Of a stretch of 64,000 nucleotides of DNA, positions 9,165-44,521 are shown piece after piece; position 1 is the stretch's first letter, and each line of letters starts with the position of its first letter. The stretch is taken from NCBI RefSeq assembly GCF_000014005.1, contig NC_008009.1:1674001-1738000 (forward strand). The letters are read 5' to 3'. This DNA is from Candidatus Koribacter versatilis Ellin345. Its GTDB lineage: Bacteria; Acidobacteriota; Terriglobia; Terriglobales; Acidobacteriaceae. Both the position numbers and the translations under genes were made by a program. The notes under the pieces were generated by a model. That model was given only the letters and a program-made list of their open reading frames with translations, had not been told where the DNA came from and made no database searches.

Positions 9165-9677
9165 GGTACCCTCAGTTCTCGCCGACAGAAGAAAACCACG
9201 GGCGCAGGATGGCTTCCGCAGTCAGCAAATCGAGCAATAGAACGAGGACAAGTTTGGCGGCATCCTACGTTTGCTCGCGAAACGAGTCAATGACCAAGTG
9301 GAATGGATCGCCCACAATGCGCGTAAAAGTTGGCAGTCAGCACAGAAGTGTGGGTTCGGTGCGCGAAGATTTCGCGGATGCCGGACGCTATTTACTTTCT
9401 GCTAAACAAAATCTTCCAATTTCCCTGTACCACCTTTGCGGTAGATTTGCGCGCAATTCGCAAATTAGAAGAATTTCCGCGCTCAGGATCACTTTTTATG
9501 GGGTTCTGGGAAAAAAATCACGGTGCAAAATCGGCGACTTTTCAACCGCGTCCGGACCGGGTATTTGTAAATACCCGCCAAATAAGCACTTAAAAAAAGT
9601 TGTTAACCAACTTCTAACTTCGGGTTTTACGGGGAGTTTTCCTGGTTTCTTCCCGGTAACTTCGTATGCAGAGTCCG
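9165..9677. other. 513-bp intergenic region containing dispersed repeat copy 1
   Basis: No convincing gene. Bases 9165-9388 are the 5' leader side of the FG-GAP gene and look unstructured to me. Bases 9389-9664 hold a repeat also found at 44026-44285. The short open frames through the region have no credible start sites. Confidence 0.6.
9389..9664. repeat. dispersed intergenic element, copy 1
   Basis: Matches 44026-44285 in the same orientation across its whole length, with well-kept islands: CCCTGTACCACCTTTGCGG near 9425-9443, AAATAAGCACTTA near 9580, and TCTAACTTCGGGTTTTAC plus TTCTTCCCGGTAACTT near 9614-9663. It lies between the pilR stop codon and the start of the FG-GAP gene. The relationship is read directly from the bases. 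The function is unknown. Confidence 0.8.
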
Positions 9678-11069
9678 CTAGAGCTCGTACTTTTTCATCA
9701 AATGCCGGAACGAGCGATACGAAAGCTTGAGCAAATCAGCGGCTTTCGTCTGCACACCATTCGCCTGCTTCAGCGCCTGCTGCAAGAGCGAGCGCTCGAT
9801 GTTCGCAACGTACGCTTCCATATCGATTCCATCGGCGTTGATCGCAACCTGCCCGTTGCCGCTGAAACCCGCGACAGCAGCGGCTGCTGCAGGTTTGTTC
9901 TTCTGCCGCTCCGTGGGAATTTCGACGTGTAGTACGTCGCTCATCTCCAGCGCAACCGCGCGCTCGATGGTGTTCTCAAGTTGCCGCACATTGCCCGGCC
10001 AATCGTACTCGCGCAAATCGCCGAGCGATTCCACACGGATGGCGCGAATGCTTTTGCCCGCGGCCGGCGCGTATTTCTTGAGGAAATGGTTCGCGAGCAA
10101 TTCAATATCATCCACCCGTTCCCGCAGCGGTGGCACCTGCACTGGAATCACGCTGAGTCTGTAGTAGAGATCTTCGCGAAACACGCCGTCGGCAACCTGT
10201 GCGTCGAGGTTCTTGTTCGTCGCGGCGATCACGCGCACATCCACTGGAATCTCGCTGGTGCCGCCAACCGGACGAATGCAGCGCTCCTGCAACACGCGTA
10301 GCAGTTTCACCTGCATGGTGAGCGTCATCTCGCTGATTTCATCGAGGAAAATCGTGCCGCCGGTAGAGACTTCGAAGAGGCCGCGCTTGTTCTGCACCGC
10401 GCCGGTGAACGCGCCCTTGACGTAGCCGAAGAGTTCGCTTTCGAGCAGCGTTTCTGGAAACGCGCCGCAGTTGATCGAGGTGAACGGTTCGCCCGCGCGC
10501 GGCGAACACGTATGCACTGCGCGTGCAACGAGCTCTTTGCCGGTGCCGCTCTCGCCGTGGATGAGCACCGTTGATCCAGTAGATGCGACCATGCGGATGG
10601 TGTTCTTGAGCTTGCCCATCGCGGGGCTGGTGCCCACGATGTTGTCGAGCGAATTGCGGCCCGCGGCGTCGCGCTTGTACGCGAGGTTCTGGCGCTTCAG
10701 GGATCCGCGCTCAACGGCGTTGCCGATCGCCACACGAATATCGTCAATGAGCGATGGGCTCTTGCGAATGTAGTCGGCAGCGCCTCCGGCCTTCACGGCG
10801 GCGACGGCGGCCTCGATGTCATCAACGGCGGTGATGAGCACCACGGCGGTGTCGGGCGAAATCTGGTGGGCGTGGCGTAGGACTTCGATGCCGTTGGTTT
10901 GCGGCATGCGGATATCGGTGACGACGACGTCGAAGAGAGCGGAGTCGAGTTTACGCTTGGCCGCTTCGCCGCTGGTCACGGTTTCCACCTTGTGACCTTC
11001 CTTGCGGAGGGCGATCTCCAGCATTTCGCAGATCGAACGTTCGTCGTCGCAGACAAGTATGTTGCTCAT
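9678..11069 (-). CDS. pilR: sigma54-dependent response regulator PilR
   Basis: Response regulator expected to activate sigma54 promoters for pilus genes. In 463 residues: a receiver domain (1-120) with the acidic pocket DD at 8-9 and phosphoacceptor Asp52; an AAA+ domain with Walker A GESGTGKE (172-179), an intact GAFTGA sigma54 loop (219-224) and Walker B GGTIFLDE; and a Fis-type helix-turn-helix at the C-terminus. It ends the pilB-T-C-S-R set and is separated from pilS by about 100 bp holding a dispersed repeat. The name PilR rests on its position next to the pilus motor genes and a PilS-like kinase. Confidence 0.9.
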   Translation of the reverse strand: MSNILVCDDERSICEMLEIALRKEGHKVETVTSGEAAKRKLDSALFDVVVTDIRMPQTNGIEVLRHAHQISPDTAVVLITAVDDIEAAVAAVKAGGAADYIRKSPSLIDDIRVAIGNAVERGSLKRQNLAYKRDAAGRNSLDNIVGTSPAMGKLKNTIRMVASTGSTVLIHGESGTGKELVARAVHTCSPRAGEPFTSINCGAFPETLLESELFGYVKGAFTGAVQNKRGLFEVSTGGTIFLDEISEMTLTMQVKLLRVLQERCIRPVGGTSEIPVDVRVIAATNKNLDAQVADGVFREDLYYRLSVIPVQVPPLRERVDDIELLANHFLKKYAPAAGKSIRAIRVESLGDLREYDWPGNVRQLENTIERAVALEMSDVLHVEIPTERQKNKPAAAAAVAGFSGNGQVAINADGIDMEAYVANIERSLLQQALKQANGVQTKAADLLKLSYRSFRHLMKKYEL

Positions 11070-11105: not shown

Positions 11106-11160
11106 ACGATAGGGGTCCTTCGACTCCGCGCGCTTTGCGATCTCCGCTCAGGATGACAGA
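11106..11160. repeat. 55-bp dispersed repeat, copy A
   Basis: Reverse complement of this stretch nearly matches 43934-43990: TCTGTCATCCTGAGCGGAGA at one end and GTCGAAGGACCCCTATCGT at the other, with a variable GC-rich centre. It fills the gap between pilS and pilR. Similar words are common between genes in Acidobacteriota in my general knowledge, so this is likely a REP-like element. Confidence 0.8.
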
Positions 11161-22629: not shown

Positions 22630-22779
22630 TTCTTCGTATCTACCCGATGAACGAAGTGTCATCGCAATCTCCCACCTTTGCGGTACCTAGAGTCGCGACA
22701 ATCGCAAGCTCCTCGTGTTTCCTCAACTGACACAAGAGACGGCCAACTCAACTAGGTCGACCGCTCAAGGGAGGAAGTT

Positions 22780-43933: not shown

Positions 43934-43990
43934 TCTGTCATCCTGAGCGGAGAGCGCACAGCGCTCGAAGTCGAAGGACCCCTATCGTCA
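43934..43990. repeat. 57-bp dispersed repeat, copy B
   Basis: Nearly identical to the reverse complement of 11106-11160. It starts 9 bases after the cdsA stop. The centre carries a GCGC-ACA-GCGC mini-hairpin. Confidence 0.8.
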
Positions 43991-44025
43991 CACTGCTCTG
44001 TCCCTCGCGCTCTCCCCACGAGCTA

Positions 44026-44285
44026 TTACCCATCAGTAAACAAAATTTTTCACTCGCCCTGTACCACCTTTGCGGCAAATTCGACGACAAGCAAAATTCC
44101 AGGGTTTACCACCGCTTTCTATGGCGTTTCAGGAAAGAAATCACGGGGCAAAACCGTCAATTTTGTGCCCCGCGAAAATACTGCCTCCGCAAACCACCAG
44201 TAAATAAGCACTTATAAAACCATGTTAACCAGAATCTAACTTCGGGTTTTACCGTAAGTTTTCCTCGTTTCTTCCCGGTAACTTG
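44026..44285. repeat. dispersed intergenic element, copy 2
   Basis: Same element as 9389-9664, same orientation. On the plus strand a GGGGCAAAA/TTTT-GTGCCCC hairpin near 44142-44172 is stronger than its counterpart in copy 1, where only the GGT/ACC and A/T parts pair. Confidence 0.8.
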
Positions 44286-44293
44286 GAAAAAGG

Positions 44294-44521
44294 TTAGCCC
44301 ACTCCACCCGCCTCTCGAATCAATTTCATCGCTTCCCGGTTCACCCAATCCTGATCGTGAAACTGCTCTCCCCACGAAATCGGCGTGACGTTTTTGGGAG
44401 CGGAGACGAATGTTCGAGTTTCGTTGCGCAAGCGTGGAAGACGAAACGGAAGCACGAATACTCCTGAAATGCCGACGGAGCGCTTACCACTGCGCGCGTG
44501 ATGCTGGCCATGGTTCGCCAC
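44294..44521 (-). pseudogene. possible gene remnant or small ORF, 75 aa
   Basis: Minus-strand open frame starting at GTG. The last 40 residues (RTFVSAPKNVTPISWGEQF, then NREAMKLIREAGG) read like true protein sequence, while the first 30 do not. No good ribosome binding site is seen. It could be a remnant of a larger gene. Its stop lies 8 bases from repeat copy 2. Confidence 0.3.

Follow-up and report, generated by a model that had tools for sequence, protein, structure and literature searches.

The window analysed here, a stretch of 64,000 nucleotides from the chromosome of Candidatus Koribacter versatilis Ellin345, contains two similar intergenic stretches of no obvious identity, and the question that they raise is what kind of element they represent, and at what level (DNA, RNA or protein) their conserved parts are constrained. 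The observation from which the initial annotation started, that the two stretches can be aligned over their whole length and share strongly conserved islands, was confirmed by alignment and by a search of the organism's own genome. Its further proposals, a small mobile element, an RNA or a regulatory repeat, are taken up below at the points where the evidence bears on them.

Extent and edges of the repeat family

The own-genome search with copy 1 gave 35 matches, which merge by position into 25 distinct copies; copy 2 was recovered by this query at E 2.3e-27 with 70% identity. A sequence-only model (R1) built from the 25 copies scores them at 164-207 bits and adds one eroded relative (L056) at 32 bits, while three further matches at 15.5-17 bits (within L057-L060) were excluded from membership. 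Both of the copies first noticed are therefore real, but their number was too low, since the 5,650,368-base chromosome holds 25 full-length copies and one eroded partial copy, distributed over both strands.

The edges of the unit were set by anchoring the 25 copies on two invariant motifs. In the resulting alignment the unit is 269-292 bp long and sharply bounded: conservation begins at the C of CTRTTTAC and stops about 49 bases past CTTCGGGTTTT, and the pairwise identity outside it has a mean of 0.24-0.28 on the left and falls to the same level within about 10 bases on the right. By these edges, copy 1 occupies positions 9388-9677 of the window on the plus strand (290 bp; model match 9387-9666, 194.6 bits) and copy 2 occupies positions 44023-44299, also on the plus strand (model match 44024-44288, 187.6 bits); the edge analysis placed the start of copy 2 at 44022, and it was moved by one base to 44023 after the sequence was read. 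The limits proposed earlier, 9389-9664 and 44026-44285, thus identified the right loci but not their exact ends.

Conserved islands and their spacing

The mean pairwise identity among the 25 copies is 67% (range 50-86%), and the 36% of the 254 alignment columns that are at least 90% conserved are grouped in islands. In copy 1, column counts place the left islands at 9388-9443 on the plus strand, where they comprise the CTATTTAC end, AAACAAAATC and the core CCACCTTTGCGG, and the right island at 9580-9677 on the same strand, where it runs from AAATAAGCACTT through AACTTCGGGTTTTAC and AGTTTTCC to the end of the unit. With at most one mismatch allowed, the left core has 26 occurrences in the genome, 24 of them within family copies; the right 27-base core, with up to three mismatches, has 22, all within family copies. 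The motif CAGTAAAYAA is present twice in direct orientation, both in the consensus and in copy 2, where its two occurrences (repeat family D2, located by consensus columns) are CCATCAGTAAACAA at 44030-44043 and CCACCAGTAAATAA at 44194-44207, both on the plus strand. A 15-base piece of the unit had also been reported to recur near 22670; what lies there, at 22672-22685, is a run of 14 bases of the left core of copy 1, CCACCTTTGCGGTA, and not CCCACCTTTGCGGTAC. No such match is expected in shuffles of the window, and the family model finds no further similarity at this place.

The spacing between the islands is constant to about 1 base, except at two places at which copies differ by 9-10 bp. In copy 1 these places are occupied by an optional 10-bp segment at 9450-9459 (plus strand), which is present in 4 of the 25 copies, and by a second optional segment of 9-10 bp at 9540-9549 (plus strand), which is present in 12 of them. 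The distances between the outer anchors fall into classes of 207-210 (13 copies), 216-219 (8 copies) and 228-230 (4 copies), which are 9-11 bp apart. A step of 9-10 bp matches approximately one turn of the DNA helix, but this is suggestive only: as judged by eye, some three changes on the tree of copies would account for the spacing classes, and with so few independent events the match may be due to chance. A scan for A/T periodicity has peaks at 11.0 and 13.75 bases, from which nothing is drawn here because the copies are homologous rather than independent.

Genomic setting

Judged from the open frames, the units are intergenic and their neighbours are arranged in tandem, divergently and convergently, with the neighbours of L003, L012, L019 and L030 doubtful on one side. 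The proteins that adjoin the copies look mutually unrelated by eye. A family search, made for five genes of the window, identified a sigma-54 response regulator, a sensor kinase and a large FG-GAP/Ig-like repeat protein near copy 1, and CdsA and Dxr around copy 2. By plain count, 9 of the 25 copies have the stop codon of a stop-free frame (197 to 501 codons) that runs against them between -23 and +11 bases from the right edge, so that this end of the unit often meets a gene at its 3' end or overlaps it slightly. The statement that both window copies sit just past the stop of a minus-strand frame applies to copy 1, where the stop of the sigma-54 response regulator at 9678 touches the edge of the unit, but not to copy 2, which lies between the plus-strand genes cdsA and dxr.

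Several features were observed in or beside individual copies. In L001 a stop codon touches the edge of the unit. A hairpin with a T run, resembling an intrinsic terminator, adjoins the right end of L009 (at its right edge), L021 and L056 by eye, and is absent from the other copies. A REP-like repeat (GGGTCCTTCGACTCCGC ... CTCAGGATGACA) lies in the window at 11113-11129 and 43965-43981, with one occurrence about 40 bases to the left of copy 2, and a stretch of about 53 bases that holds this repeat has many matches in the congener G001. The minus strand of L003 has at 547-664 (approximately G000:C1:3458686-3458803) a sub-threshold match to the Y-RNA-like YrlA family (41.1 bits against a cut-off of 69, E 4.8e-6), which overlaps a weak tRNA match.

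Distribution in other genomes

The family model gave no match at E up to 0.01 among the best candidates, at most 32 per genome, from 60 relatives (1 congener, 35 genomes from the same family, 14 from the order and 10 from the class), and none at E up to 0.001 among the best five candidates per genome from 395 other genomes of the phylum, which partly overlap the 60. In a DNA search with copy L020 against 398 other genomes of the class, considering the best two candidates in each, the one match was partial, covering 36 bases (E 2.7e-4), and came from a genome of a different family. The exact pattern of the right island has no match in 84,980 species genomes, among which the organism's own genome is perhaps not included, or in viral contigs. 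The left-core pattern is likewise absent from viral contigs; it matches once, in a Fibrobacteria genome, with no wider similarity around the match (15.5 bits). Copy 1 has no match among plasmids or phages. The dispersed repeat is so far seen in one genome only, among those searched.

At both window loci the congener G001 is without the unit, although neither place is a clean empty site. The regulator next to copy 1 has a homologue there with 81% identity as far as the stop codon, past which there is no similarity, nor is there any for the next gene of the window, and the congener's cdsA-dxr gap is filled by about 1.1 kb of other, apparently coding sequence; by eye, this gap (L141, G001:C31) resembles a nucleotidyltransferase/HEPN-type pair. 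The family is not described in the available parts of PMC3733652, PMC3174227, PMC5900883 and PMC10969869, and a mention of it in print is possible.

Spread of the unit and possible maintenance of the resident copies

The reading proposed here, which is put forward tentatively and with something short of an even chance of being right, is that the family consists of an old, non-autonomous, non-coding unit that would have been copied whole and whose islands would be binding sites for DNA-binding proteins. The spread of the sequence as a unit is supported by its dispersal, its sharp ends and its absence from the congener, and to this extent the earlier suggestion of a small mobile element is sustained. 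The alternative that competes most directly with the binding-site reading, doubtful though deserving of serious consideration, is that the unit is purely selfish: a miniature mobile element, now inactive, whose resident copies have no function, whose islands persisted solely because the source copies required them for movement, and whose autonomous partner has been lost. The discrete and dispersed form of the unit, its restriction to one lineage, and its mean G+C content of 44.5%, as against 56.8% in the left flanks, are all in keeping with such an element.

The marks of a mobile element were, however, absent at the points where they were sought. There are no terminal inverted repeats (comparing the left end with the inverted right end, the best of 20 averages 9.24 over the 25 copies, against 9.25 for random pairs). 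No target duplication appears at a shared offset with repeated words outside the unit, and the difference obtained with free offsets (matched 3.76, unmatched 3.34, p 0.023) was judged weak. Nor was a larger or autonomous element sharing the ends of the unit found in the organism's own genome, in which searches with the model and with the motifs gave the family copies, the eroded copy and stray low-scoring matches. It also counts against a selfish element that there is no recent pair, the closest two copies being 86% identical, and that L056 is the single eroded copy found.

Whether the islands have continued to be constrained in the resident copies can be approached by comparing the terminal and internal branches of the tree of copies. 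The changes per column on terminal branches are 1.53 in islands and 3.30 in other columns, and on internal branches 0.43 and 1.64, which corresponds to an odds ratio (terminal versus internal) of 1.76 for island constraint. This slightly weaker constraint on the terminal branches is in the direction that functionless copies would produce, but the odds ratio lies between the values simulated under the two models and decides nothing by itself: constant constraint gives 1.27 (sd 0.27), with 5% of runs reaching 1.76, while full relaxation after insertion gives 2.38 (sd 0.46), with 6% of runs falling below 1.76, and a half-relaxed model gives 2.28. The count of island changes on terminal branches fits constant constraint better than relaxation, since the simulations give 1.53 under constant constraint and 2.45-3.50 under relaxation (3.50 when it is full), so that the observed change is well below that of simulated decay. 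The test is partly circular because the islands are themselves defined by the conservation of neighbouring columns, and its results favour maintained copies without proving that they are maintained.

A more specific form of maintenance may be considered, though it is unlikely: that the units are species-specific chromosome-organising or insulating sites, in which several proteins would occupy helically phased sites on an element of 270-290 bp that was duplicated to 25 gene boundaries and is kept at each by selection. We know of no nucleoid-site or insulator sequence that is related to the unit.

Constraint on RNA, protein or DNA

If the units were small RNA genes, or repeated insertions of a single RNA domain, their free-standing intergenic placement in every orientation would be accounted for, but this reading is improbable. 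In the RNAalifold prediction over the 25 copies there are no predicted pairs with a compensatory (double) change on either strand; the absence of covariation is the one outcome found among those that the initial annotation had named as telling against its element (a match to an IS end, or a lack of both further copies and covariation), and 23 further copies were found. The folding of single copies is close to that of shuffled sequence (mean z of -0.5 on the plus strand and -1.1 on the minus strand, 25 shuffles each); 4 of the 25 copies have a z below -2 on the plus strand and 5 on the minus strand. The exception is the consensus fold of the minus strand, which at -34.8 is better than all of 15 column shuffles (mean -24.5, sd 4.1, lowest -33.9), while that of the plus strand is no better than its column shuffles. 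The hairpin noted at 44142-44172 does exist in copy 2 (pair I3, 13 nt, 85% complementary) but is absent from the prediction over the 25 copies. No Rfam family reaches threshold in the window, and the only match inside any of the 25 units at permissive limits is mir-644 in L009, with 26.7 bits against a cut-off of 96. A scan for sigma-70-like promoters found none in either window copy, and terminator-like sites number two in the region of copy 1, against 0.8 expected, and none in copy 2. The RNA interpretation is accordingly disfavoured.

Two further candidates were considered and set aside. A minus-strand sigma-54 promoter (TGGTAC) was dismissed by eye, its second box being missing. A closing helix formed by the two flanks, left and right, seemed persuasive on inspection of several copies by eye, and was dropped because matched flanks pair no better than unmatched ones (p 0.74 on the plus strand, p 0.84 on the minus strand).

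Movement of the unit in trans through one of the genome's own single-strand (Y1, REP-associated) transposases is very unlikely. The genome has four Y1 and eight IS110-type transposase matches, and two of the four Y1 matches, at G000:C1:4101916-4102599 (L158) and 3290225-3290977 (L159), stand at 0.8 and 2.3 kb from one of the unit's copies; Y1-type movement leaves no target duplication, which would agree with the flanks of the unit. This proximity was, however, spotted after the fact, and when the surroundings of the four Y1 genes were compared with one another, and by eye with the unit, the nearest of these genes (4101916-4102599) was seen to lie within a 64-bp palindromic pair of its own, which does not resemble the ends of the unit. 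Y1 elements moreover need hairpins near their ends, and none is conserved over the copies. Around another Y1 match (L160, G000:C1:1899850-1901700) there are many similar direct and inverted repeats, of up to 606 bp and 87% identity.

A decayed protein-coding family, read in the GKK-GKL-VKPEVR frame, is scarcely credible despite short open frames across the copies (in copy 1 they reach 96 codons) and one plus frame of the left island that has a stop in just 3 of 25 copies, for it is refuted in the main by stops in the right island in 15 to 25 of the 25 copies in each of the six frames, and it is opposed by indels of 1 or 9-10 bases and by variable sites that are spread over the codon positions (minority sums 9.1, 6.0 and 7.6) rather than concentrated on one. 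For the right island this upholds the earlier suspicion that conservation acts on nucleotides and not on codons. The lack of compensatory pairs, together with the stops in every frame of the right island, places the constraint on DNA, and by exclusion it most likely acts on the double-stranded form.

Proposed explanation

The conserved parts of the unit are best read as DNA sites for proteins, and what function these might serve we infer from the sequence. On the binding-site reading, a non-coding unit of 269-292 bp would have been copied whole to at least 25 intergenic places on one chromosome, and the direct pair of CAGTAAAYAA, the CCACCTTTGCGG core, the AACTTCGGGTTTTAC block and the two ends would together make up a fixed array of protein-binding sites on double-stranded DNA. 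The islands may be read, in one phased complex, by a single DNA-binding protein of the species or by several; such a complex would have taken part in copying the unit and may now act for the resident copies, for example as local chromosome-organising or insulating sites. This reading is suggested by the occurrence of 25 full-length copies whose edges are sharp and whose flanks are unrelated, by islands that are nearly invariant at a mean pairwise identity of 67%, by a spacing that is constant except for changes of 9-10 bp and by a motif in direct repeat, and by a terminal island change of 1.53 that equals the value simulated under constant constraint.

Comparison with known repeats and elements

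As they are described in the available part of PMC10969869, MITEs resemble the unit in being short, non-coding, multicopy and intergenic and in lacking a transposase gene, but the unit has no terminal inverted repeats, no shared target duplication and no autonomous partner with its ends found in its own genome. The unit is therefore of a known kind as a dispersed intergenic repeat, but it fails those tests made that define a MITE. The available part of PMC3733652 names three TIRYT-type tyrosine transposase genes in K. versatilis and describes REPs as palindromes of 20-40 bp; the REP and TIRYT palindromes are likewise dispersed intergenic repeats of this organism, whereas the unit is 270-290 bp long and not palindromic. 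No palindrome of the REP kind is present in either window copy.

ERIC, BOX and Correia-type repeats, set beside the unit by description, share its size class and its intergenic dispersion, but these repeats form hairpins or have inverted ends and the unit does neither. In multi-site nucleoprotein elements such as phage attP or Tn7 ends, a number of short sites are spaced at fixed distances within 200-300 bp, and by description this arrangement is like that of the unit, which differs from them in having no recombinase or transposase gene or edge duplication and in being present in 25 dispersed copies in one genome. Small dispersed repeats of bacteria usually reveal their movement by inverted ends or hairpins, neither of which is present here, and yet the 25 copies hold the same islands at the same spacing at an average identity of only 67%. 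If the resident copies are under selection, then this genome would possess, at gene boundaries scattered along it, its own set of similar DNA platforms.
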